A DNA stretch of 25,584 nt from a virus. Position 1 is the first letter of the stretch. Every line of letters starts with the position of its first letter. Under the pieces are notes generated by a model. It had not been told where the DNA came from, ran no database searches, and saw only the letters and a list, made by a program, of their open reading frames with translations. Below are positions 1-23,991 of this stretch, piece after piece. The translations under genes and the position numbers were made by a program. Location of the stretch: IMG/VR virus record IMGVR_UViG_3300030060_007136, positions 1-25,584 of that record, one strand, 5' to 3'.

Positions 1-662
1 GTTCGGGTGAGAGAAGTCACGTTGATCGTGTGGATGATTACAGAAGAAACTATATCTCAACACAAAAGTTATTGATTGCATGTCTTGATTATAAACCAAA
101 GTCCATAGTGTTTGCAAGTTCAGTATCAGTGTACGGTAATAAATCAGATGCAAGAGAAGAGGATAGACCAGAACCATTATCTAATTATGGTAGACACAAA
201 TTGATGGCAGAAAGATTGCTTAAGGATTATTGCGACTCTACAGGTGTCATGGGAACTTCTCTTAGATTATTCAATGTATACGGTGATGGGCAAGATGAAT
301 GGGATTTGCAACAGGGCATGGTGTCAATTTATGTGGCACTTGCTAAACAAGGTCACATACAAGTAAAAGGGTCTGGAAATAGAGTAAGAGATTTTGTGCA
401 CGTAGATGATGTTGTAGATGCTATAAATTCTGCTTTACATAGATGCAGTGGCAATACTTATGAAGAAATAAACATTGGATCAGGTATACCTCGCAAAGTT
501 TCAGAAGTTGTTGAAGCGATTGCAACCAAATACAATGCCACATATGAATATTTGAGTGAAAGAACTGCAGGTGACTCAGATTTTTCATATGCTAATATAT
601 TGAAGGCGGAAATTTTGTTAGATTATAGGGTAAAACATCATGATATTATTCACTGGTTGTAG
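1..662 (+). CDS. NAD-dependent sugar-nucleotide epimerase/dehydratase, 5' end outside window
   Basis: Extended short-chain dehydrogenase/reductase of the UDP-glucose 4-epimerase type, which would convert a nucleotide-activated sugar for glycan synthesis in the cytoplasm. The reading frame is open from base 3 with no start in view, so the NAD-binding Rossmann loop lies upstream. Visible family marks are SHVDR (about 15-29), the N..ST.KLL helix, the SSVSVYG strand (about 118-139) and the catalytic pair Y-G-R-H-K (YxxxK, about 186-200). Later come the substrate-binding R-x-F-NVYG and the RDFVHVDDVVDA block typical of GalE/RmlB-like enzymes. The C-terminus (DYRVKHHDIIHWL) is shorter than usual and its last 23 bases overlap the next gene, so it may have been clipped at a recombination junction. 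The fold is clear. The exact sugar is unknown. Confidence 0.88.
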   Translation, partial: SGERSHVDRVDDYRRNYISTQKLLIACLDYKPKSIVFASSVSVYGNKSDAREEDRPEPLSNYGRHKLMAERLLKDYCDSTGVMGTSLRLFNVYGDGQDEWDLQQGMVSIYVALAKQGHIQVKGSGNRVRDFVHVDDVVDAINSALHRCSGNTYEEINIGSGIPRKVSEVVEAIATKYNATYEYLSERTAGDSDFSYANILKAEILLDYRVKHHDIIHWL

Positions 663-1215
663 TATGACATGGGGAGATGAGTTAGAACACCGTCTCCAAG
701 ACAGATTTTCAAGATCTCATCCTAATATTGCTGAGTGTGGCATGTCAAATGACATGATGGTGATGAAAACTATTGAGTATATTGAGCAAAATCCTGACGT
801 AGAGTATGTTGTTGCTCAATTTTGTGTGCCAAGAAGGATAATGTATTACAAAAATGGTTGGAAAAACATAACTCCGTGGACAAAAACAACTGAGGCGAGA
901 GTATTTTACAAATATTTGGATTCACAAGAGTCAAGAATGATGAATTTATGGAAAAATGTGTATATTTTAGATCAATACCTAGGTGACATACCTCATTATT
1001 TTTGGAGATCTGGTGAAGAATCGGAAAAAAATATGAAAAATGACTGCATTTTTAAGAAATTGGTGCCTTGGAGTGATATGGTGACCTTGTATGACCTTAT
1101 TGGCACCCCAGATGGTAGTCCCCAAAACTACGTAACTGGTCACCCTAACAAACAAGGTCATGAATTGATCGCTCAACACCTCCAAGGCGTTGTCCCAAAC
1201 TCATTATACCACTGA
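640..1215 (+). CDS. SGNH-hydrolase-like protein, copy 1
   Basis: 191 residues. The N-terminus MILFTGCSMTWGDEL fits SGNH/GDSL block I with the candidate nucleophile Ser8. GMSND (34-38) fits block III (GxxN, Asn37), and GHPNKQGH (167-174) fits block V with His168. The Asp usually three residues before the block V His is Val here, so a classical triad is incomplete. Such enzymes remove or transfer acyl groups on sugars or lipids, but activity here is unproven. The start overlaps the epimerase stop by 23 bases, which suggests translational coupling. The 3' end overlaps the 3' end of the convergent sulfotransferase-like gene by 43 bases. The protein is a clear paralog of the one at 8355-8993, sharing GCSxTWGDEL, the DRFS segment, G-x-SND, ENLWKN/MNLWKN and GHP...GH. 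Confidence 0.7.
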   Translation: MILFTGCSMTWGDELEHRLQDRFSRSHPNIAECGMSNDMMVMKTIEYIEQNPDVEYVVAQFCVPRRIMYYKNGWKNITPWTKTTEARVFYKYLDSQESRMMNLWKNVYILDQYLGDIPHYFWRSGEESEKNMKNDCIFKKLVPWSDMVTLYDLIGTPDGSPQNYVTGHPNKQGHELIAQHLQGVVPNSLYH

Positions 1216-2084
1216 TCATAGTATTTTGCAAGGCATCTTCGTCCGAAACTCAAGTCATCATCTGATAAATCTTCCAAATCGGTGTTCCACTGACATTGAA
1301 GGTATTCATGTTTAGGTGCTTTTGTTCCCATTTCAGGATAATAGCAGTTAGGCCATAGGTTTTTGATGTCAAATTGTAAAAAATTGCTAAGTTTTGCTAA
1401 AGCGTCATTTTTCCCTCCCCATAAGTCCTCTGAGACAATGGGGTGTGTACTAAACACACCTCTGTATGTCTTATATCTCTTCACGTAGTCACAATTCAAC
1501 CCATAATCTCCCTTCATGAGATAATTTCTGAAGTAATCTTTAGATGACACATACTTTTTTTGCAACAACCAACTATTTTTATAATGATATGACAATTCTG
1601 AGTACAATCTCCTCACAGGATCTCTAAAAATTATTAGAATTTTAATTTTGAAGTGTTTTTTAAGGATTGGTGCAATCTTTTGTAGAAAAGATAGAGGTAA
1701 GAAAGCGTTACTATTAGAAAAATCGTGAACGTAAGAATACTCATGCTTTACTCTTTGATAATGTCTGGTATAATATTTGATATATGTGTCTAATGTTGGT
1801 TTCTGGTATAATTCATGTATCTCGTCAAGGTTCTTATGGAAAGCGTACTTGTTTTTCATACCATATGATTGTGGCATGACAGGAACCATGGAATCATTTA
1901 CTGCTTTTTCATACCAAGGTTTTCTCCACTCCCACGCATCTTGACTATATACATGAGATAGTAAATGGTCTTCTTTTAAGATACCTGTATGACTACATTT
2001 ATTAGCACATTGTAAAGTAAGATGCAAAGGACTCGTAGCACTCCAACCAGTACCAGCACCAATGATCAAAGGAGTCTTAAACAT
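1173..2084 (-). CDS. Sulfotransferase-like protein, inverted paralog A
   Basis: 303 residues and the only minus-strand gene in the window. It shares all blocks of the local family. These are an N-terminal loop GAGTGWSATSPLHLTL (9-24) in the place of the 5'-phosphosulfate-binding loop, DFSNSN (121-126), and FRDPVRRLYS (153-162), which matches the 3'-phosphate-binding motif RDPxxRxxS of PAPS-dependent sulfotransferases. EDLW replaces the MEEFW of its paralogs, and the C-terminal block YPEMGTKAPKHEYL...QW is kept. The product would transfer sulfate from PAPS to a sugar or other acceptor in the cytoplasm. The loop lacks the Lys or Arg that usually contacts the phosphosulfate, so activity is uncertain. 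The stop overlaps the SGNH-like gene by 43 bases. The start lies 24 bases from the favoured start of the divergent oxygenase gene. No Shine-Dalgarno sequence is obvious. Confidence 0.75.
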   Translation of the reverse strand: MFKTPLIIGAGTGWSATSPLHLTLQCANKCSHTGILKEDHLLSHVYSQDAWEWRKPWYEKAVNDSMVPVMPQSYGMKNKYAFHKNLDEIHELYQKPTLDTYIKYYTRHYQRVKHEYSYVHDFSNSNAFLPLSFLQKIAPILKKHFKIKILIIFRDPVRRLYSELSYHYKNSWLLQKKYVSSKDYFRNYLMKGDYGLNCDYVKRYKTYRGVFSTHPIVSEDLWGGKNDALAKLSNFLQFDIKNLWPNCYYPEMGTKAPKHEYLQCQWNTDLEDLSDDDLSFGRRCLAKYYDQWYNEFGTTPWRC

Positions 2085-2108
2085 ATAAAGGAACCATGGG
2101 AATATATT

Positions 2109-2711
2109 ATGATAGAAAATTTCCTATCTCCAGAGAGATGGAATGCTATTAAGAATTTAGCAGAGATAGAACTTGAAAATTACTATAGTTGGATTGAGTC
2201 AAAAGATGATAAAGTATATTTTAATAAAGCAAATAAATCAAGAAACAAATATGTCTTTTATCCAGAAGAAGACATAATACCAGAGGTAAATGATTTATTC
2301 TTTGATTTTGATTTGCCACATAGAGGTTATACAGGTAAGTTAGGAAAAATTGTACACTGGGCGATAGCACCCCCTGATTGGTATTATCCTACACACATAG
2401 ACAATAGATCTAGAATCAGCACCTCAATCTTATATGTCAGTCCAGATGAAAGTGATGGAACTGTCATAGCAAAAAATCCAAGTATCAATGATTTGGGAGA
2501 TCATGAAGCAGCAAATCAAAAAGACACATATAACTATAAAACAGATTGGAAACCAAATTCTTTGATGTTTCACAATCCTATACCAAACGTATCATGGCAT
2601 GCAATAAGAAATACCACTGATAAACCTAGAGTTACACTCAATACTTTTATAGTGCAACCAGATTTAGTTTCAAAAGGCAGATGCTACAGTGATCACATCT
2701 TGAATATATGA
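2109..2711 (+). CDS. 2OG-Fe(II) oxygenase-like protein (prolyl-4-hydroxylase/Rps23 type)
   Basis: With the ATG at 2109 the protein has 200 residues. HID (His96, Asp98) after WYYPT fits the HxD iron-binding motif. The distal His164 in SWHAIRNTT and Arg174 in PRVTLN fit the second iron ligand and the 2-oxoglutarate-binding Arg. The start MIENFLSPERW is the usual opening helix of phage and bacterial oxygenases of this fold. The substrate may be a sugar, peptide or lipid and cannot be read from sequence. The frame stays open upstream to an ATG at 2022, and the preceding residues PWEYI resemble the strand that normally comes before the D/ENFL motif. The true start may therefore lie upstream, inside the antisense paralog A gene. 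The stop overlaps the next ATG as ATGA. Confidence 0.72.
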   Translation: MIENFLSPERWNAIKNLAEIELENYYSWIESKDDKVYFNKANKSRNKYVFYPEEDIIPEVNDLFFDFDLPHRGYTGKLGKIVHWAIAPPDWYYPTHIDNRSRISTSILYVSPDESDGTVIAKNPSINDLGDHEAANQKDTYNYKTDWKPNSLMFHNPIPNVSWHAIRNTTDKPRVTLNTFIVQPDLVSKGRCYSDHILNI

Positions 2712-3622
2712 AACCAACCTTGTTGTTGTTTGGTGGCATAGGTTTCTGTGCAACCACACCGCTTTATTATACACTTTGTTGGGATAACAAATACGCACAC
2801 GGTGGTCATTGTAAAGAGACAGAATATTTTCGTGTAATTGAAAATAACAAATTAGTAAAAAGATTTCTTAGACAACAAGAAAAAGACTTAAGAAATAAAC
2901 CACCAATACTATGCAGTAATTCACCATATGTAAAATTTAATGGTGAAGAATTTTTTTGTAAAGACATATCCATTGAAAGGTACATTGATTATTTCTTGAC
3001 TCATTGGAATCATATAAAAAAAGATGGTTATCATGCAGTATGTGATCTTTCAAATGCTAACATGGATGTTTCATCGCAATTACTGGAAAGGATAAGAGAT
3101 CAGATACAAAAACACTTTGTAATCAAGTGGCTTATGATAGTACGAGATCCAATAAGAAGATCATTTTCTGTATCAAATAGGTTGACTCAAAATTACACTG
3201 CTAATGAGTGGTTTCATGGTCTTGACGCTCTGCAACATTTTAAAATATCATGTAAAAATCCTTTTCTACCAGACATATACTGTGATTATGTTGGAAGATT
3301 TGAAAAGATTGAAAAAATTTTTGGTAAAGGACAAATAATTGTTATGGAGGAATTTTTTGACAAAAACTCTAAAAGACACTCGAAGTCTGTTGATGATTTG
3401 TCAAAATATCTTGATTATAAAATAGAAAAAATACATGAAAATGTTTACACTCCTGATATGGGTTCAAAAGCACCACATCTCAAATACCTAAGGGATCAAT
3501 GGTCGTCTGATGTTATAGATATGGATGAAGACACCTATCAATATGCTATGTCTCATATGAAACATATATACGACGATTATAAAAATAAATTTGGGTATAT
3601 TCCAGAAGAGTGGGGTCAATGA
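2708..3622 (+). CDS. Sulfotransferase-like protein, paralog B
   Basis: 304 residues. It starts MKPTLLLFGGIGFCATTPLYYTL, where residues 9-18 stand in the place of the PAPS 5'-phosphosulfate loop. NKYAHGGHCKE follows and is almost identical in paralog C. Then come DLSNAN, VRDPIRRSFS (RDPIRR at 146-151, the 3'-phosphate-binding type motif), MEEFF (from 213), and the C-terminal block IHENVYTPDMGSKAPH...LRDQW. Length and motif order match small bacterial carbohydrate sulfotransferases. Start and stop are both coupled to neighbours by ATGA overlaps, so the gene sits in a single polycistron. The product is probably a cytoplasmic transferase acting on a phage- or host-made glycan. The acceptor is unknown, and the basic residue expected in the first loop is absent. 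Confidence 0.75.
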   Translation: MKPTLLLFGGIGFCATTPLYYTLCWDNKYAHGGHCKETEYFRVIENNKLVKRFLRQQEKDLRNKPPILCSNSPYVKFNGEEFFCKDISIERYIDYFLTHWNHIKKDGYHAVCDLSNANMDVSSQLLERIRDQIQKHFVIKWLMIVRDPIRRSFSVSNRLTQNYTANEWFHGLDALQHFKISCKNPFLPDIYCDYVGRFEKIEKIFGKGQIIVMEEFFDKNSKRHSKSVDDLSKYLDYKIEKIHENVYTPDMGSKAPHLKYLRDQWSSDVIDMDEDTYQYAMSHMKHIYDDYKNKFGYIPEEWGQ

Positions 3623-4557
3623 AACCAATTTTATTATTGAATGCTGGTGTGGCGTTCTCTGCTACATCACCTTTACATTACACACTTGGGTGGGACAACA
3701 AATACGCTCACACAGGACACTGTAAAGAACATCATTACCTTTACATTTTGGAGAGTGACGACAGACATGCAAAACGTGAGTTTCTACACGAAAAAAGACA
3801 AAAAGCAAATGACAAGAAACCTATTATACTAGGTCCTGATTCAGAGTACGTTAAATTCAAAGGTGATTATTTTTTCAATCCTGATAACTCAATTGATAAT
3901 TATATAAAGTATTATCTAGAGCATTACGACAATATAAAAGATGACTACAAGGCAGTTGCTGATTTTTCCAACAGTAACGCCATATTGTCAGAGAAGTTTA
4001 TGAATAGTATCAAACCTAAATTACTTGAGAACTTTGATGTGAAAGTAATAATGGTTTTTAGAGATCCAATAAGAAGGTTGTGGTCTGTATCTAATGTAAT
4101 TGTCAATAATTGGAAAACATTGAAAAAAAATAAGAGCAAAAGAAAACACTCAAGCACTAATTGGAATATAGAACCTGAGAATGTTATAGATTATATCAAG
4201 ATGTGTGTTGGTGGTAAACTTGAACCAAATGCATACTATCACGACATACTAAGGAGACACAGAAATGTCTGGGGTAGAGATAATGTACATCCGATTATCA
4301 TGGAGGAGTTCTGGGCAGGTGATACACAACCACTTGAAGACTTCTTAGAATTTCCCCTCCCAAAAATACATGAGAATGTTTATTATCCTGATATGGGATC
4401 TAAAGCACCCCACTATGATTATCTAAAAGATCAATGGCAATCAGATACTGAGGATATCACTAAAGATTTGTATGAGTATTGTCTTGGTAAGATAAAATAC
4501 ATTTACGATGAATTTGTGTTGGAATATGGGCGTATGCCTGAGGCGTGGATGCGGTGA
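3619..4557 (+). CDS. Sulfotransferase-like protein, paralog C
   Basis: 312 residues from the ATG at 3619. A GTG at 3610 is in frame, but the paralogs all begin at M/V-K-P, and the ATG at 3619 gives an ATGA overlap with the previous stop. Motifs in order are LNAGVAFSATSPLHYTL, NKYAHTGHCKE, ADFSNSN, FRDPIRRLWS (RDPIRR at 148-153), MEEFW, then IHENVYYPDMGSKAPH and LKDQWQSD. It is closest by eye to paralog B at both ends. It carries a lysine-rich stretch of its own (KKNKSKRKHSS, near residues 170-180) just after the RDP motif, where sulfotransferases hold acceptor-binding loops, which suggests a different acceptor. The function call rests on motif order. The first loop again lacks Lys or Arg. Confidence 0.75.
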   Translation: MKPILLLNAGVAFSATSPLHYTLGWDNKYAHTGHCKEHHYLYILESDDRHAKREFLHEKRQKANDKKPIILGPDSEYVKFKGDYFFNPDNSIDNYIKYYLEHYDNIKDDYKAVADFSNSNAILSEKFMNSIKPKLLENFDVKVIMVFRDPIRRLWSVSNVIVNNWKTLKKNKSKRKHSSTNWNIEPENVIDYIKMCVGGKLEPNAYYHDILRRHRNVWGRDNVHPIIMEEFWAGDTQPLEDFLEFPLPKIHENVYYPDMGSKAPHYDYLKDQWQSDTEDITKDLYEYCLGKIKYIYDEFVLEYGRMPEAWMR

Positions 4558-5447
4558 AACCAATACTACATATCAATGCAGGTGTGGGATGGTCTGCAAC
4601 TAAACCCCTTTGTTATACATTAGAACAAATTGGATACTGTCACAGAGGAGAAACAACAGAGAGTAATATTTTGTACTATCTCTATGAAAGAATGTACAAA
4701 CCTGTTCATGCAAGATATTACTGGCATACAGAGCATAAGCATAGGGGATATAAATTTGTATTAAAGAATACGACGCTTGATTGGTATATCACATACATGA
4801 AGGAGAGAGTGAAGGATGGATATAGAGGTGTCAGTGATTTTTCTAATAGTAATGGTGATTTGCCAAAAAACTTTTTGAAGCAAATAGCACCAAGATTGCA
4901 AGAAGAGTTTGATGTGCGTGTGACTATGATATGGAGACATCCAGTAAGAAGGTCTTACTCACAAATATCAAATTGGTATAAGCATATGACCAATAATGAC
5001 AATGCTCCAAAAGAATGGAAGATAAGAGATCCAGAAAAAGCAAAGCAATGGCAAATGATAAAGGAGACATACCCAGATAGTATTTCATATTGGAGGAGTC
5101 AACTTATCAAACCCTCTCGTTTCTTTGTACCAGACTACGTGTCTAATTTTGAGGCGTGGAACGTATTTGATAATGTATACGCTGTAATAATGGAAGAAGC
5201 ATGGCATGACCCATCAGCACTATCAGATTTTATTGGACATAAGATCGATAAGATGCATGCCAACGTATATTACCCAGAGAGAGGAACAAAAAGACCAGAG
5301 ATAAAAGGTTTGAGAGATCAATGGAGTTCTGATATGCAAGATTTATCAAAAGATGATTTGCAAGAAGGTAGGAGGAGACTGAATTTTGTGTATGAAAATT
5401 TCAAGAAAAAATTTGGATATATACCTTATCAATGGGAATTATCATGA
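4554..5447 (+). CDS. Sulfotransferase-like protein, paralog D
   Basis: 297 residues from the GTG at 4554, chosen because it overlaps the previous stop as GTGA and yields VKPILHINAGVGWSATKPLCYTL, matching its paralogs. An in-frame GTG at 4545 would add three residues. The family blocks are present: SDFSNSN, WRHPVRRSYS (from residue 127), MEEAW, then MHANVYYPERGTKRPE and LRDQWSSD. The Asp of the RDPxRR motif is His here, while both flanking Arg and the Ser stay. This paralog alone has a Lys in the N-terminal loop (SATKPL), where a PAPS-binding Lys would be plausible. The stop overlaps the ATG of a 30-codon micro-ORF. Confidence 0.74.
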   Translation: MKPILHINAGVGWSATKPLCYTLEQIGYCHRGETTESNILYYLYERMYKPVHARYYWHTEHKHRGYKFVLKNTTLDWYITYMKERVKDGYRGVSDFSNSNGDLPKNFLKQIAPRLQEEFDVRVTMIWRHPVRRSYSQISNWYKHMTNNDNAPKEWKIRDPEKAKQWQMIKETYPDSISYWRSQLIKPSRFFVPDYVSNFEAWNVFDNVYAVIMEEAWHDPSALSDFIGHKIDKMHANVYYPERGTKRPEIKGLRDQWSSDMQDLSKDDLQEGRRRLNFVYENFKKKFGYIPYQWELS

Positions 5448-5536
5448 AAAGATTATGGGAATGGATCAAGGGAGAATATAAACTTTGGAAATTGCGTCGT
5501 CAAGATCCTTACATATATGAAGACGATGAAGACTAA
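5444..5536 (+). CDS. Micro-protein of 30 residues between sulfotransferase-like genes
   Basis: A short frame whose ATG overlaps the TGA of paralog D as ATGA, the same coupling used by the real genes around it. The peptide begins MKRLWEWIKG, a basic Trp-rich amphipathic segment, continues with KLWKLRRQDP, and ends in an acidic tail, YIYEDDED. The stop falls 11 to 20 bases inside the following gene, depending on which ATG that gene uses. Without this ORF the span between paralog D and the next gene would be a 69-base gap in an otherwise gapless operon. I do not recognise a function. A membrane-surface or partner-binding peptide is possible. The evidence is context and composition only. Confidence 0.5.
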   Translation: MKRLWEWIKGEYKLWKLRRQDPYIYEDDED

Positions 5537-6032
5537 ACCACTATTCATTTTGTGTGGTGCTGCTCATTATGGAAAGGTAGGAAAAATTGATCCTCTTTAT
5601 TTTCTTTTATCAGAAAAAAAGATTTGTCAGGGTAGGCATCTTGAGTCATACAATTGGATAGAGACTTTTGGTAAGACTTTGTATAAATGCGATGCTTTGG
5701 GTAAAATATTCACTAATCGCACAGATGGTGAAAAAGACCCACCCACAATAAAAAAGTACGTTGATGTTTACAGGACTTATTGTGATGCGATTTATCCTGT
5801 CTATAAAGGAGTAATAGAAAATACACTACACACTTCTTCTTTTATAACATTGACACATGATTTCATAGATCAATTATATACTGAACTCAAACCACATTTC
5901 AGAGTAAAAGGTTTAGTGGTGTATACTGAAGAGTATGAACGAGTCTTTGAAAAATATAATGCACACTTTCCAACATTCGCTGTCAATCCATATAAAATTA
6001 ATCAAGAATTATGGGATTTTTTGAGTGAGTAA
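5517..6032 (+). CDS. Half-length, divergent sulfotransferase paralog E
   Basis: 171 residues, covering only the N-terminal half of the family fold. The opening KPLFILCGAAHYGKVGKIDPLYFLL aligns with the LLLxGxGxSATxPLxYTL loop of the other copies but loses its SAT core. The segment LKPHFRVKGLVVY aligns with the strand before the RDP motif in the paralogs. At that place the sequence is TEEYER (137-142) instead of RDPIRR, and the DFSNSN block is also gone. Everything after that block (MEEFW, MGSKAP, DQW) is missing. Catalysis is therefore unlikely. It may be a decaying copy or a non-catalytic partner. The frame is intact and overlaps the next gene by 8 bases, which argues for some selection. Start is ATG 5517 or ATG 5526; the latter fits the MKxKP pattern of the family slightly better. 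Confidence 0.6.
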   Translation: MKTMKTKPLFILCGAAHYGKVGKIDPLYFLLSEKKICQGRHLESYNWIETFGKTLYKCDALGKIFTNRTDGEKDPPTIKKYVDVYRTYCDAIYPVYKGVIENTLHTSSFITLTHDFIDQLYTELKPHFRVKGLVVYTEEYERVFEKYNAHFPTFAVNPYKINQELWDFLSE

Positions 6033-7011
6033 AATACCTTTGTTATTGTTCTGTGGATGGGGTCACTCTGCATCAACACCTTTTTATTATACTCTTGCCT
6101 TAGATAATAAGTATTGTCACGCAGGTCACAAAAAAGAAATAGGATATCTCACGGAGTTAGAGAATTACGAATTCTTTGGTAAAGACATGTGGATCGGTTG
6201 TCATACAGATCCATATGATAGATTGCTTGGAGACAGTAAACATCTTTGGGATGTTCCTGAGATATTAGATCGACACTCACCTTATAATAAACATAGTGAG
6301 GATTTTATAAGAGATTGGATATCACCACCACCTAGTATAGAGAAGTACATAGATTACATGCTTATTCATTATGAAAGTATAAGGAATGACTATAAAGCAG
6401 TAGCTGATTTTGCAAATTCAAATGGTTGGTTAAGAAAATCGTTTCTTGATAAGTATGCACCAATCTTAAACGAAGTATTCGATGTAAAATGTATATTTGT
6501 GTGTAGAGATCCTGTCTATAGATCATACTCTGATTTTAGTGCAAAGTTTACAGGTAATGATCCTAGTGGTAGACTATTAAAGAAAGGACAACTATACCCC
6601 GACATGCCTTTAGACAAACACTATGAACACATTTATGATATGTTTATGGGTGAATTGAAAAAAAGTTGCACAAGATTTTATGTAGATTTTTTCACAAAAT
6701 TTACAAAATATTTTGACACTATGCAAATTGTGATGGAAGAGTTTTGGGAACCTGAATTGCATGATGAACAAATAGAAAAATTATCAACCTTTTTAGATTA
6801 CCCAATAAAAAAAATTCATGAGAATTTATTTTGGCCAAGAAAAACCATGAATAAACATGAGCATCTCAAAGATCAATGGGGGGCAGTGGAAGAACCCATA
6901 ACAGAGGAGTTATATAATCATGGTAGAAGAGAACTAAGTTTTGTTTACACTCAGTGGGTGAACACTCATGGGTCATTACCAAAAGTGTGGGGGGTTTATG
7001 ATAGGGTTTAG
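6025..7011 (+). CDS. Sulfotransferase-like protein, paralog F
   Basis: 328 residues, the longest copy, starting at a GTG that overlaps the stop of paralog E by 8 bases. Motifs are LLLFCGWGHSASTPFYYTL, NKYCHAGHKKE (as in B and C), ADFANSN, CRDPVYRSYS (RDPVYR at 161-166), MEEFW, then IHENLFWPRKTMNKHEHL and LKDQW. Extra length lies between residues 45 and 100, a region rich in Asp, His and Trp, where the paralogs also differ most. That pattern fits acceptor-specific loops on a shared nucleotide-binding core. The second Arg-neighbour of the RDP motif is Tyr (RDPVYR) rather than Arg. The last 14 bases overlap the favoured start of the carbamoyltransferase. Confidence 0.74.
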   Translation: MSKIPLLLFCGWGHSASTPFYYTLALDNKYCHAGHKKEIGYLTELENYEFFGKDMWIGCHTDPYDRLLGDSKHLWDVPEILDRHSPYNKHSEDFIRDWISPPPSIEKYIDYMLIHYESIRNDYKAVADFANSNGWLRKSFLDKYAPILNEVFDVKCIFVCRDPVYRSYSDFSAKFTGNDPSGRLLKKGQLYPDMPLDKHYEHIYDMFMGELKKSCTRFYVDFFTKFTKYFDTMQIVMEEFWEPELHDEQIEKLSTFLDYPIKKIHENLFWPRKTMNKHEHLKDQWGAVEEPITEELYNHGRRELSFVYTQWVNTHGSLPKVWGVYDRV

Positions 7012-8374
7012 TGAGGGTTTTCATGATGCTGCTGTTGCAGTTGTGAATAATGGTAGGATACCTTACGCAGCACACTCAGAAAGATACTCAAAAAAGAAAC
7101 ATGACAAACACCTTGATGTCACCGCAGCATCCACAGCAAGACTCTTATCGACTGATGGTAAGATAGCGTTTTACGAAAGACCATGGTTGAAGAGAACAAG
7201 ACAATTTTTTGCAGGGCAGAAGGCGTGGTATAGAGAAAGACATCTATCACTTAAACCTACTGAGTATCATAGTCATCATAAATCACATGCAGCAGCAGCG
7301 TTTCAAACATCACCTTTTGATCAAGCAGTATGTGTGGTGGTTGATAGTATAGGTGAGTGGGACTGCACATCTATATGGACAGCGAAGTATGTCAAGGGGC
7401 ATGCGTGTTATAAAAAAGTGTGGTCACGCTGGTATCCGCAATCTATTGGTTTATGGTACTCTGCGTTGACAAAATGGGCAGGTCTGCGTCCGTTAGATGA
7501 GGAATATATTTTTATGGGTATGGCAGCGTATGGTCACCCTGTCCACCTTAACGCTGTTGAAAGGGCACTTCGTAGAAATAATCATAAAGGGATAAGACTT
7601 GGTGATTACGATAAGTGCGATATAGCAAAGAGTGCAGAGAGAATATTGCAATTAGAATTGAATGAGATATTTGACATAGCATCACGATATAGTAGGAACA
7701 TATGCTATGGGGGTGGTGTTGCCTTGAATTGCGTTGTAAACACAGGTCTAAGGGAAATGTATAATCTTTGGATTATGCCTTGTCCTGGCGATGCAGGGGG
7801 TGCTCTGGGGGCAGCATGTTTAGCATACGGTAAGAAGGTTGCCTTCAGTCCGTATCTTGGATATAATATACAAAAGTTCTGTGATCCAAGGAGAGTTGTT
7901 GATGGACTCCTCGAAAAAAGAGTCGTGGGGGTTGCGAATGGCCGTGCTGAGTTCGGTCCTCGTGCTCTTGGTAATAGAAGTTTATTGGCGGATCCGAGGC
8001 AAGCTAGCACAAAAGACTTAGTAAATGAAATCAAACGAAGAGATAAATTCAGACCCTTTGCCCCTGCAATTTTGGAGGAGCATTGTCAGGACTACTTTGA
8101 TATGCCTTCCAATTCGAGATACATGTCCTATGTCTATAAGTGTAAGCAACCTAAGGCGATACCTGCTTGTATACACGTCGATGGTAGTGCGAGGGTACAA
8201 ACAGTTCCGTTAGATTCTGAGAGTATTCTGAGACCAATACTAGAGGCATGGTATGCACGTACAGGATGTCCTGTATTATTAAATACATCTTTGAATATCA
8301 AAGGTAAACCAATGGTAAATACAATACATGACGCAAAATCATTTGAAAGAAAATATGATGTCACTGTGTTTTAG
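6998..8374 (+). CDS. O-carbamoyltransferase (NodU/CmcH/TobZ family)
   Basis: 458 residues from the ATG at 6998, which gives MIGFSEGFHDAAVAVV, the standard N-terminus of the family. An upstream ATG at 6968 would add ten unlikely residues. The N-terminal Kae1-like domain has HD (9-10), HHKSHAAAAF (metal-binding His near 93-97), VDSIGEW, and GGVALNC followed by CPGDAGGALGAA. The C-terminal domain has FGPRALGNRSLLADPR (near 317-332), DKFRPFAPAI and TSLNIKGKPMV. The family moves a carbamoyl group from carbamoyl phosphate, via carbamoyl-AMP, to a hydroxyl of a sugar. Some phage members are reported to act on hydroxymethylated DNA bases instead. The protein stops soon after KGKPMV and lacks the last helix and strand usually seen there. 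Its 3' end overlaps the second SGNH-like gene. Local sequence around 7400-8000 looks richer in GC than its neighbours. Confidence 0.9.
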   Translation: MIGFSEGFHDAAVAVVNNGRIPYAAHSERYSKKKHDKHLDVTAASTARLLSTDGKIAFYERPWLKRTRQFFAGQKAWYRERHLSLKPTEYHSHHKSHAAAAFQTSPFDQAVCVVVDSIGEWDCTSIWTAKYVKGHACYKKVWSRWYPQSIGLWYSALTKWAGLRPLDEEYIFMGMAAYGHPVHLNAVERALRRNNHKGIRLGDYDKCDIAKSAERILQLELNEIFDIASRYSRNICYGGGVALNCVVNTGLREMYNLWIMPCPGDAGGALGAACLAYGKKVAFSPYLGYNIQKFCDPRRVVDGLLEKRVVGVANGRAEFGPRALGNRSLLADPRQASTKDLVNEIKRRDKFRPFAPAILEEHCQDYFDMPSNSRYMSYVYKCKQPKAIPACIHVDGSARVQTVPLDSESILRPILEAWYARTGCPVLLNTSLNIKGKPMVNTIHDAKSFERKYDVTVF

Positions 8375-8993
8375 TGGATGCAGCATCACTTGGGGTGATG
8401 AATTGCAAGATAGAATGAATGACAGATTTAGTAATCTTGTATCTCAACATTATGGTTGCAATGGATATAATCTCAGTGAACGTGGTATAAGCAATGACGC
8501 TATTGTGCGGAGAACCATTAAGTATCTAAAAAATACAAGACCAGATGTGTTAGTGATGCAATTTACTGTGACGCAGAGAATAGAATATTTTGAGAAACAA
8601 CCTGAGAATTGGACACCACAAAGAACCAAGACACGCAGAGAAAGAGATTATTACACACGAATATACAATGATGTTCTTGGTGCAGAGAATTTATGGAAGA
8701 ACATATTCCTGTTTGATTCGTATTGTAAAAGTATTGGTCAAAAGTATGTGTCTATAATTGCAGAACACTATGAGAGCACACAAAGGTGGCCAGAGAGGTA
8801 TTATGAAAACAAAATAGGGTATTGGAGAAGTTTGTGTGATGACTATACTCCAGTATGGATGCAGATGGACTTATTAAAGGGTTTGAAAACTCATCCTCAT
8901 CATTATGCAAATGGTGTAAATGGCGGACACCCAAGTCCAGAAGGACATAAGACAATTGCAAATAAAATCATTGAGTTGATAGACGCTATATAA
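8355..8993 (+). CDS. SGNH-hydrolase-like protein, copy 2
   Basis: 212 residues from the ATG at 8355; the next codon but none downstream is also ATG (8358), and 8328 is an earlier, less likely option. It starts MMSLCFSGCSITWGDEL with the candidate nucleophile Ser10, has GISND (44-48) for block III, and NGGHPSPEGH for block V with His192. The block V Asp is Asn here, compared with Val in copy 1. These residues suggest an esterase or acyltransferase fold acting on a glycan, though catalysis may be altered. The two copies bracket the sulfotransferase, oxygenase and carbamoyltransferase genes. The start overlaps the carbamoyltransferase stop by 20 bases. A sigma70-type promoter for the next gene lies inside its 3' end. 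Confidence 0.72.
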   Translation: MMSLCFSGCSITWGDELQDRMNDRFSNLVSQHYGCNGYNLSERGISNDAIVRRTIKYLKNTRPDVLVMQFTVTQRIEYFEKQPENWTPQRTKTRRERDYYTRIYNDVLGAENLWKNIFLFDSYCKSIGQKYVSIIAEHYESTQRWPERYYENKIGYWRSLCDDYTPVWMQMDLLKGLKTHPHHYANGVNGGHPSPEGHKTIANKIIELIDAI

Positions 8994-9025: not shown

Positions 9026-9778
9026 ATGGCTAAAGGATTTAAGGTGGTATCTAAACCACCTACAGCGAAGGAAGACGCTTTTGATATTGAAGCAGCAAAA
9101 GAACTCATCAAGGGTAAAAGTGTTGTATTCTGTTTACCTGGCAGAGGTGTATCATATATCTTCCTAAAGAATTTCGTATCACTCTGTTTTGAGTTGGTAC
9201 AAAACGGAGCAAATATACAGATTGCACAAGACTATAGTTCAATGGTAAATTTTGCAAGATGCAAAGTTTTAGGTGCAAATGTTCTTAGAGGTCCTGATCA
9301 ATTACCTTGGGATGGTAAACTAAATTATGATTATCAACTGTGGATAGACAGCGACATTGTTTTCAATCTTGAAAATTTTTATAGAGTTGTAGCAATGGAT
9401 AAAGACATCGCAGGGGGTTGGTATGCCACAGAGGATGGTAGAACTACATCATGTGCACATTGGTTAGAAGAAGACGATTTCAAAGAGAATGGTGGAGTTA
9501 TGAATCATGAGATGGTGGAAGGTATTGTCAAACGTCGTAAACCATTCACTGTAGATTATTCTGGTTTTGGTTGGTTACTCATAAAGAAAGGTGTATTTGA
9601 ACATAAAGATATGAAATATCCTTGGTTTGCTCCACAGATGCAGGTATTTGACTCAGGTGAGGTGCAAGATATGTGTGGTGAAGATGTATCATTCTGTCTT
9701 GATGCAATCAAAGCAGGTTATGAAATATGGATTGATCCGCAATGTAGAGTGGGACATGAAAAAACAAGAATTATATAG
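9026..9778 (+). CDS. GT-A fold glycosyltransferase-like protein
   Basis: 250 residues. After VVFCLPGRGVSYIFLKNF comes the strand LWIDSDIVF with the DxD-type motif D108-S109-D110, the metal and nucleotide-sugar site of GT-A enzymes. A typical late acidic motif follows, GEDVSFCLDAIKAG (Glu219, Asp220), with a C-terminal VGHE (His244) where GT-A enzymes often place a third metal ligand. It would transfer a sugar from a nucleotide donor to an unknown acceptor in the cytoplasm. Proteins of this look are common in T4-like marine phages. It is the only glycosyltransferase in view and has its own promoter, so it may serve the cassette upstream or work alone. The 62-residue gene follows after 9 bases. 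Confidence 0.75.
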   Translation: MAKGFKVVSKPPTAKEDAFDIEAAKELIKGKSVVFCLPGRGVSYIFLKNFVSLCFELVQNGANIQIAQDYSSMVNFARCKVLGANVLRGPDQLPWDGKLNYDYQLWIDSDIVFNLENFYRVVAMDKDIAGGWYATEDGRTTSCAHWLEEDDFKENGGVMNHEMVEGIVKRRKPFTVDYSGFGWLLIKKGVFEHKDMKYPWFAPQMQVFDSGEVQDMCGEDVSFCLDAIKAGYEIWIDPQCRVGHEKTRII

Positions 9779-10001: not shown

Positions 10002-10009
10002 GATAAATA
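10002..10009 (+). promoter_or_regulatory. T4-like late promoter octamer before gp25
   Basis: GATAAATA matches the NATAAATA late-promoter pattern of T4-like marine phages (TATAAATA in T4). Transcription would begin roughly 10015, giving a leader of about 15 bases before the GTG start of gp25. A weaker look-alike, TCTAAATA, lies just upstream at 9992-9999. Its place directly after a terminator and before the baseplate block supports the call. Confidence 0.65.
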
Positions 10010-10029: not shown

Positions 10030-10434
10030 GTGCCTGCACAAAGGTTTTCGCAAGGATTTAAGGATATCTCCTTATCTTTCAAAAGACATCCAGTAACAAA
10101 TGACATTCTTGCATTAAAAAATGAGGATGCCATAAAACGTTCTGTGCAAAATTTAGTTCGCACAATACAGGGTGAAGTTTTTTTTAATGATTTAATAGGC
10201 ACACGATTGGAGGGATCACTTTTTGAATTAGCGAATAATGATTACGTAGATCCTATAAAAAGTCAAATTGAAAATGTAATCAGTAATTTTGAACCTAGAG
10301 TTCAATTAATGAAAGTAAATTTTAAGACTTTTCCTGACCAAAACGCAATTGAAGTTACTGTAAAATATGATATTATCGGACTTGATGCTCCTACACAGTT
10401 TATCAATTTTATTCTAGAACCCACAAGGTTATAA
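10030..10434 (+). CDS. 25: Baseplate wedge subunit gp25
   Basis: 134 residues, close to the 132 of T4 gp25. The GPW/gp25 family core motif E-P-R is at 88-90 in NFEPRV. RSVQNLVRTIQGEVFF (from residue 37) fits the family's N-terminal helix. In T4, gp25 forms the core bundle of the baseplate wedge with gp6 and gp53 and nucleates the sheath. TssE of type VI secretion is a homolog. Translation starts at GTG (10030); no ATG exists nearby and no Shine-Dalgarno sequence is clear. The stop and the next ATG share one base in TAATG, so gp6 is translationally coupled. Confidence 0.93.
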   Translation: MPAQRFSQGFKDISLSFKRHPVTNDILALKNEDAIKRSVQNLVRTIQGEVFFNDLIGTRLEGSLFELANNDYVDPIKSQIENVISNFEPRVQLMKVNFKTFPDQNAIEVTVKYDIIGLDAPTQFINFILEPTRL

Positions 10435-23800: not shown

Positions 23801-23988
23801 AACTTTCATCTGGTCATGGAGTAGTGGCGAGTGTAGGAAGTAGCGTCCTTGGTTCCTACTCATACGCTAAATTTACGACTGGAGCTGTAGGTTTAGCATT
23901 CACCGTGAATACCTTGAATGGTCTTACAGGATTATCTACTGCTCCACAAATCCAAAGAACAACTAAATTGTCACTGGATTACACATAA
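20860..23988 (+). CDS. Large beta-modular baseplate/tail structural protein (gp7 slot, second gene)
   Basis: 1042 residues, near the size of T4 gp7 (about 1030), but I cannot show homology to it. The N-terminus MSFQLASVNKQFNTQSESFQ has no signal peptide. It reuses modules of the preceding giant protein: FVIKVSEDKFKLASTKAFA...VGVGTTHRF (about 61-134) and NRDYFIIKNDNNNFSFAETKGDAL...GIGTHKL (about 261-337). Two copies of an adhesin-like unit follow, VVLINNVFQKPETDYEY (about 388) and ILIFINDVLQKPGVAYKF (about 671). The second unit continues to TEAPAFGSSLQVLFYRGT, a pattern common in phage tail-fibre and baseplate proteins. The GYTGSGYREAG region (about 484) is another G-GY module. The C-terminal third contains VGDHGEIVGVGV. 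It is probably a peripheral baseplate or fibre-attachment protein. Confidence 0.75.
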   Translation: MSFQLASVNKQFNTQSESFQRSFNLTHQGDPIFSHEFDASSSTNVLLGSDTLVIKNHFYVTGEELTYDTGGGTGIGIDHTSSGIGADTLLPSSVFVIKVSEDKFKLASTKAFALSNDPIGLTTVGVGTTHRFTAQKPDTKCIISVDNVIQSPLISITGTATTTENTMVNREVRFADIRGFKQYDMIQIGNEILRIQVIGFGTESNNVLLDRAWMGTTEEAHLNNSTVTLLQGDYNIRQDKIHFADVPFGGTRQFVGVSSFNVDVTTNKFTALTEVFDTGTQVKLRSITPPSPLVGNRDYFIIKNDNNNFSFAETKGDALTGVGITLTSAGIGTHKLLVADVVQGSEFQGRAFTRSDYSGNFLLDDLAPSFTGVAKTFTMTSGGSNITGINTDFGVVLINNVFQKPETDYEYLSNSGITSIRFTGNNIEGQTEVYSTSDVNANRLPRRGIISGLGNSQGFGYQQTIAGFGTAVVSGFGTITVSMGYTGSGYREAGTQFRVRVLGGNPTTAAAGTFSVQDGRIKKVFMDSTPGVGYTFTDVPLLEFDSPYGYDDIKLISANTGIGASVSITIGVGDSISESNIINTGYGFTVGEVLTIAGIPTNFSAGTNFQPATFTVTETSDDKFSGWVLGKFQILDDFSDEFNGSKKIFTITENNTPVSIEKATGNLISLDDVILIFINDVLQKPGVAYKFNGGTQIEFTEAPAFGSSLQVLFYRGTDADVTEASAVETITKGDIITLQSAPENRSILKQNPRTIRETVSRDTLQTTIYKAQGISATKSTLRPVTWRKQEHDKVVDGAIVSKARGLYAGQIFPATRIIADVATTDTVVYGQSGIIGFTKTEDPNTSTFGVKIIDTDKDNSGFGTTTFTNPYKSISGVTMVGDHGEIVGVGVTSKGLQLDFSIPSNSPLRENNLGGITETGIGTGDYFVVSRSNVSSGGILTARTSNGSAVVGIATTCLDGVYQVSHITRVGSTQTFRVHTELSSGHGVVASVGSSVLGSYSYAKFTTGAVGLAFTVNTLNGLTGLSTAPQIQRTTKLSLDYT

Positions 23989-23991
23989 ATA
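23984..23991 (+). promoter_or_regulatory. T4-like late promoter octamer before gp8
   Basis: CATAAATA, an exact NATAAATA match, spans the stop of the 1042-residue protein. Transcription from it would begin near 23997, about 27 bases before the gp8 ATG. It sits at the only intergenic gap in the structural block after gp25, which supports a real late promoter. Confidence 0.6.

Follow-up and report, generated by a model that had tools for sequence, protein, structure and literature searches.

Diverged Sulfotransferase-Fold Paralogs without the P-Loop Lysine in a Putative Glycan-Tailoring Island of Uncultivated T4-like Cyanophages

Introduction

Why would a phage carry six diverged copies of one transferase-like gene side by side? 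The question is raised by IMG/VR virus record IMGVR_UViG_3300030060_007136, of whose 27,307 bases the first 25,584 (the window) were analyzed. Positions 1173–7011 had been predicted to hold six sulfotransferase-like (ST) paralogs, suggested to form a combinatorial system for sulfation of glycans or surfaces. Here, we report that the array is real, that its copies have the predicted fold of sulfotransferases that use 3′-phosphoadenosine 5′-phosphosulfate (PAPS), and that the P-loop lysine of such enzymes is replaced throughout the family. As a working explanation, to which sequence comparisons give about an even chance, we propose that the array forms the heart of a glycan-tailoring island of uncultivated T4-like cyanophages, and that its diverse copies would mark host surface glycans, likely with sulfuryl groups.

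Results

Six Paralogs with a Predicted Sulfotransferase Fold

Five full-length paralogs (A, B, C, D, and F) and one half-length copy (E) were found exactly where predicted. In pairwise BLASTP, the full-length copies align from end to end at 29–40% identity (E-values from 1e-30 to 1e-77), which is far beyond chance. Copy E is genuinely, if remotely, related (E 3e-6 against F and 5e-5 against A). Copies B, C, and D are joined: C starts with ATG at 3619 and D with GTG at 4554, each overlapping the preceding stop by 4 bp. The ordered motif blocks described in the original prediction are common to the copies in general, with exceptions: A reads SEDLW rather than MEEFW; in D, RHP replaces RDP and RGTKRP replaces MGSKAP; F lacks the MGSKAP block; and E lacks the RDP..S site and all sequence after it. 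Length variation in the family concentrates at residues 41–94 (36–127 residues) and 156–207 (18–62 residues), in agreement with the prediction that the copies differ mainly between the first two blocks and after RDP. In the sulfotransferase fold, these segments flank the acceptor cleft.

An AlphaFold2 model of copy C, built with 79 family sequences, had a mean predicted local distance difference test score of 92.7 and a predicted template-modeling score of 0.92. Its best matches among solved structures were all PAPS sulfotransferases: the bacterial structure 3rnl (E 2e-7), then 3-OST-3, CurM, 3-OST-1, TPST, and NDST. Behind 3rnl, polysaccharide sulfotransferases predominate, and olefin-synthase domains were matched as well. 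A sequence profile alone, independently of structure, reached 3rnl with an E-value of 3.5e-8. In a viral structure library, sulfotransferases of Marseillevirus LCMAC201, cyanophage S-SCSM1, and uncultured marine viruses were matched. Judging from the model, we are confident that the family has the PAPS-sulfotransferase α/β fold with PAPS-binding architecture, and the P-loop sulfotransferase fold originally predicted is borne out.

Replacement of the P-Loop Lysine

A review of polysaccharide sulfotransferases defines the superfamily by a phosphosulfate-binding (PSB) lysine or arginine, a helix serine, and the sheet architecture (PMC11625862). We counted the corresponding residues over 82 non-redundant family members. 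The 3′-phosphate site is kept (R148 in 81, R153 in 82, and S156 in 79 members); its arginine and helix serine are present in the full-length copies of the window and lost in copy E. The KE motif, which is typical of glycan sulfotransferases, is also kept (K36 in 69 and E37 in 68 members). The P-loop consensus is G-x-G-[W/F/H/Y]-S-A-T-x-P, with alanine for a P-loop glycine in 75/82.

Several observations weigh against standard sulfate transfer. At the P-loop lysine position, all 82 members carry an aromatic residue (54 Trp, 15 Phe, 10 His, and 3 Tyr), and Lys and Arg do not occur; no full-length copy thus has the 5′-PSB lysine or arginine of a PAPS-dependent enzyme. In NDST1, this lysine is the proposed catalytic acid, donating a proton to the bridging oxygen (PMC3733922). 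The column nearest to the second NDST lysine (K833) holds lysine in only 29/82. The second lysine position of 3-OST-type enzymes, which we take to be F116 in DFSNSN, appears to be replaced too. Finally, only 20 of 81 members give even a weak match to Pfam Sulfotransfer_1. That a lysine of the C-terminal SKAP block might compensate was considered and rejected, lysine being found there in only 29/82. Because the hallmark lysine or arginine is replaced by an aromatic residue, sulfate transfer is not a safe inference and, the defining residue having been looked for and found replaced, we do not file the family under PAPS sulfotransferases despite its fold. Of the predicted glycan or surface sulfation, the fold and the glycan-modification context stand, while the activity becomes doubtful; copy E, a remote relative, has lost the 3′-phosphate site as well. 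Altered catalysis, use of a different donor, or a role in binding alone are possible alternatives.

The assignment of the lysine column comes from an alignment with a sister family that has no gap in this stretch, and it does not depend on distant alignment. This family, the nearest sister found (profile–profile E 1.5e-19), occurs in the virus AG-345-D19 (L069, 1501–2313) and on three viral contigs (L081–L083). Its PKSGTT P-loop retains the lysine: the sister reads MKPILVICPGNPKSGTTSL versus MKPILLLNAGVAFSATSPL in the array family. Unlike the array family, it lacks R153 and is a single gene in AG-345-D19. The sister family is itself under the Pfam cut-offs. These sequences suggest that either the lysine was lost or the change separated the two groups, and the 82/82 replacement is probably one ancestral, family-wide change and not 82 independent events.

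The chief rival to sulfate transfer is that the family has left sulfuryl transfer, retaining the fold either for a different donor or purely for binding, as a lectin-like or PAP-binding protein, in which case the aromatic residue would be a feature of the new ligand. We regard this as possible but rather doubtful, and the sequence evidence does not decide the matter. The uniform aromatic replacement amid strongly conserved surroundings speaks for such a change, as does the lysine-keeping sister in related phages, given which the loss is derived or the family was kept apart. H31, N253, P257, Q272, Y296, and W310 are conserved in the family and not evident in the sister, and copy E is conserved with only half of the domain. 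A pure binder of another ligand would, however, have no need of the 3′-phosphate site and the KE motif, both of which are kept.

The Array Is a Mosaic of Older Paralogs

A scan of viral contigs yielded 32 loci, a count that takes in near-identical contigs and two loci sharing one contig, and iterating a profile search brought the family to 122 members, spread over 36 fetched sequences (window included) from related phages. Loci carry from one copy (on fragments) up to eight (L013); a 192-kb genome has six copies at three places, and one matched stretch has an in-frame stop.

In a quick tree, whose deep branches are unsure, A, D, and F did not group together: each clustered with its equivalents in other viruses, in clades that comprise 11, 10, and 7 rows, respectively (Shimodaira–Hasegawa-like approximate likelihood ratio test support 99–100). 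The paralogs therefore predate these viruses, and recent tandem duplication was rejected as the origin of A, D, and F. Orthologs of A occur in 18 of the 36 sequences (60–81% identity), those of D in 13 (62–86%), and those of F in 10, while B and C are part of a more diverse middle group. Across viruses, A tends to come first and to be divergently oriented, F usually comes last before the carbamoyltransferase gene, and the middle changes. The array is evidently a mosaic in which orthologous lineages are assorted differently between viruses. This mosaic content and the variability of the acceptor loops fit the combinatorial system first suggested, which we would still put forward only conditionally.

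The ratio of nonsynonymous to synonymous substitution rates (dN/dS) was 0.04–0.11 for A, C, D, and F (A, 0.04–0.07; D, 0.06; F, 0.08), with saturated dS; the overall range of 0.04–0.12 points to purifying selection. Copy E has an ortholog in locus L029 (1368–1877; 80% identity) that lies between orthologs of D and F, as in the window; here dN/dS was about 0.1 with unsaturated dS. Copy E is therefore maintained, and its interpretation as a decaying pseudogene was rejected. Conserved yet devoid of the 3′-PSB site and the C-terminal half, copy E is a possible non-catalytic partner subunit.

Viral Lineage and Host

Downstream of the island, gp25, gp6, a gp7-like giant gene, and gp8 follow in the order known from cultured S-SM2. 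The gp8 product is 67% identical to that of AG-345-D19, a single-cell-derived marine virus, and 49–53% identical to those of the nearest cultured cyanophages. Three larger related records carry psbA (those of 192 kb and 122 kb, and AG-345-D19); none was read in the window's own record, a 27-kb fragment. Baseplate gene order, kinship of gp8 and of the phrog_1574 gene (Table 1), and psbA in the relatives identify the window, by sequence, as a fragment of an uncultivated T4-like (Kyanoviridae-like) cyanophage. Its predicted host is a cyanobacterium, with Prochlorococcus and Synechococcus both candidates. A SAR11 host was rejected in view of psbA in related records and of the cyanophage origin of the nearest gp8 and glycosyltransferase genes; SAR11 would lack PAPS. 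The contig begins at the left edge of the window, so further ST copies may lie upstream.

Cyanobacteria assimilate sulfate through PAPS, and an adenosine 5′-phosphosulfate (APS) kinase model finds matches in Synechococcus elongatus. A search of 20 related phage records turned up no APS kinase, and phage-supplied PAPS was rejected on this ground.

The Island and Its Expression

The features of the island are collected in Table 1.

Table 1. The ST array, its neighbors, and the right-hand edge of the island (positions in the window).
Feature	Position	Strand	Evidence or remarks
NAD-dependent nucleotide-sugar epimerase	3–662	+	PF01370 E 8.5e-34; cut by contig edge
SGNH/GDSL-like protein 1	640–1215	+	Weak: paralog pattern; recurs in 16 island open reading frames (ORFs)
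Copy A, ST-fold paralog, 303 aa	1173–2084	-	P-loop GTGWSATSPL; divergent; only copy on opposite strand
2OG-Fe(II) (2-oxoglutarate) oxygenase-like gene	2109–2711	+	PADLOC 2OG model E 4e-6; HxD...H pattern; open frame from 2022, in-frame ATG 2109
Copy B, 304 aa	2708–3622	+	P-loop GIGFCATTPL
Copy C, 312 aa	3619–4557	+	P-loop GVAFSATSPL; modeled with AlphaFold2
Copy D, 297 aa	4554–5447	+	P-loop GVGWSATKPL; RHP for RDP
Possible 30-aa ORF (MKRLWEWIKGEYKLWKLRRQDPYIYEDDED)	5445–5537	+	Open frame read from sequence, between D and E
Copy E, half-length, 171 aa	5517–6032	+	Without 3′-PSB Arg/Ser and C-terminal half
Copy F, 328 aa	6025–7011	+	P-loop GWGHSASTPF; usually at carbamoyltransferase end of array
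NodU-type carbamoyltransferase	6968–8374	+	PF16861 E 2e-53; PF02543 E 2e-31; phrog_1601 E 7e-90; start probably 6998
SGNH/GDSL-like hydrolase 2	8328–8993	+	PF00657 E 0.008, under cut-off; recurs in 70 island ORFs
Glycosyltransferase-like phrog_1574	9026–9778	+	E 1e-114; 76–79% to P-SSM2, S-SSM7
ATAAATA late-promoter core	10003–10009	+	Motif match upstream of gp25; right-hand edge of island
gp25 baseplate wedge	10030–10434	+	PF04965 E 4e-10; opens late structural block; gp6, gp7-like, gp8 next

The order ST array, carbamoyltransferase, SGNH hydrolase, phrog_1574, gp25 is fixed in nearly all loci that reach gp25, and the phrog_1574 gene adjoins gp25 in cultured cyanophages too. Beside the ST array, such islands hold an epimerase gene, one or more SGNH-like genes, 2OG oxygenases, a carbamoyltransferase, and a glycosyltransferase-like gene. 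The SGNH/GDSL-like proteins are also multi-copy and diverged, with up to six per locus (L018, 60–4386; L019, 138–2834), mirroring the ST expansion. In many relatives, a gene of 345–380 aa with no known family lies between the ST array and the carbamoyltransferase gene (L010, 8364–9407; L018, 11922–13046); it is absent from the window. The possible 30-aa ORF had no match in phage records.

The baseplate genes gp25, gp6, and gp8 border on the island and share its strand, which would suit enzymes that decorate the virion (glycans of tail fiber or baseplate) rather than the host. Across loci, however, the ATAAATA motif precedes gp25 in 24/28 and gp8 in 1/1 cases, but ST genes in 2/118, and the second SGNH, carbamoyltransferase, and glycosyltransferase-like genes in 1/70, 1/30, and 0/28, respectively, counts whose weight is limited by the fact that genes in an operon need no promoter each. 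The window has two copies versus 13.5 expected (10003–10009 and 23985–23991), upstream of gp25 and gp8. These numbers argue moderately against the island being a late unit. Because the island is nearly without late-promoter motifs, early or middle expression and action on host glycans is favored over virion decoration, one of the roles originally suggested, which we now consider unlikely. In addition, the same slot in cultured cyanophages holds small-gene, purM, CP12, and 2OG regions. Both ATAAATA copies in the window immediately precede late structural genes, which looks as though the motif were counter-selected elsewhere.

A metabolic or small-molecule function of the array, with sulfation or detoxification of soluble compounds and no relation to surface glycans, seems very improbable: same-fold enzymes do act on small molecules and polyketides, as the CurM and olefin-synthase matches recall, but the constant neighbors are epimerase, glycosyltransferase, carbamoyltransferase, and SGNH genes, and polysaccharide enzymes dominate the best structural relatives after 3rnl.

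Proposed Role and Relation to Known Systems

In the proposed glycan-tailoring island, each full-length paralog would hold a nucleotide 3′-phosphate of the PAP or PAPS type through the conserved R148-D-P-x-R-R153-x-x-S156 site, and the variable segments 41–94 and 156–207 would give each a different acceptor pocket. The group transferred, most likely sulfuryl donated by host PAPS, would end up on a hydroxyl of a glycan at the cell surface, one that the products of the neighboring epimerase, glycosyltransferase, carbamoyltransferase, SGNH, and 2OG genes make or edit. Since every member has an aromatic residue in place of the P-loop lysine, catalysis must either rely on a different residue, for which Glu37 of the KE motif is a candidate base, or proceed unlike that of textbook sulfotransferases. 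Different copies may leave different marks, and swapping of copies between viruses may alter the coat of the infected cell, which could, for example, stop superinfection or adsorption to debris. We also entertain, a little short of an even chance, that this is a virus-specific multi-copy ST-fold family that works by lysine-free or other-donor transfer or serves as a variable glycan- or nucleotide-binding set, reshuffled in cassette-like fashion.

The family resembles the PAPS polysaccharide sulfotransferases (3-OST, NDST, and 3rnl) in fold, in the strand–loop–helix P-loop, in R-D-P-x-x-R-x-x-S, and in the KE motif. It differs from them in the aromatic residue and the alanine of the P-loop, in a family-specific C-terminal Q-W/Y...P..W signature, and in that most members are under the Pfam cut-offs. 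The S-SCSM1 sulfotransferase, from a cultured T4-like cyanophage, belongs to the same superfamily but is the one Pfam match in its genome, has a canonical PRSGST P-loop, passes Pfam Sulfotransfer_3 (E 3e-22), and is unmatched by the profile of the array family. Sets of genes modifying lipopolysaccharide or glycans in T4-like cyanophages likewise include phage-borne epimerase, carbamoyltransferase, glycosyltransferase, and 2OG genes. At the gp25 junction of cultured S-SM2, P-TIM68, P-SSM2, and S-SSM7, in contrast, an ST array is missing. Directly ahead of gp25, S-SM2 and P-TIM68 carry small ORFs together with purM or CP12, and P-SSM2 and S-SSM7 carry the glycosyltransferase-like gene accompanied by 2OG or small ORFs.

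If active, these proteins would be sulfotransferase-fold enzymes without the lysine that underlies both the accepted mechanism and recognition by annotation tools, which would be part of the reason that the family largely escapes current profile libraries. Uncultivated ocean cyanophages would then have, for the marking of cyanobacterial surfaces, a repertoire that is reshuffled. Should the proteins not be active as sulfotransferases, they would represent a large expansion of a repurposed fold.

Database Searches

Among 50,697 phage records, searched with three query copies, the single-cell assembly AG-345-D19 was the only match, and none came from cultured phages. No bacterial relatives were found in two GTDB genome scans, which rely on short exact motifs and do not prove absence. 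A DNA-level search of phages with the array gave no match, and a literature search brought up no report of it. PHROGs, NCBIfam, and PADLOC assigned no family to the ST copies; among the PADLOC models of anti-phage defense, only a generic one was matched, by the adjacent 2OG gene. No window copy reached the gathering cut-off of Pfam Sulfotransfer_1, _3, or _2 (best 18 bits versus a cut-off of 22), copy A being under it with a Sulfotransfer_1 E-value of 0.0019. Weak matches (E ≤ 0.1) in the family were to PF00685 (20/81), PF13469 (10/81), and PF03567 (2/81), and one related ORF just attains the PF00685 cut-off once its pieces are joined. In the 122-kb relative, two adjacent proteins with GIPGSGWAK-type P-loops (L057, 1192–1938 and 1847–2695, minus strand) look like another sulfotransferase-like family.

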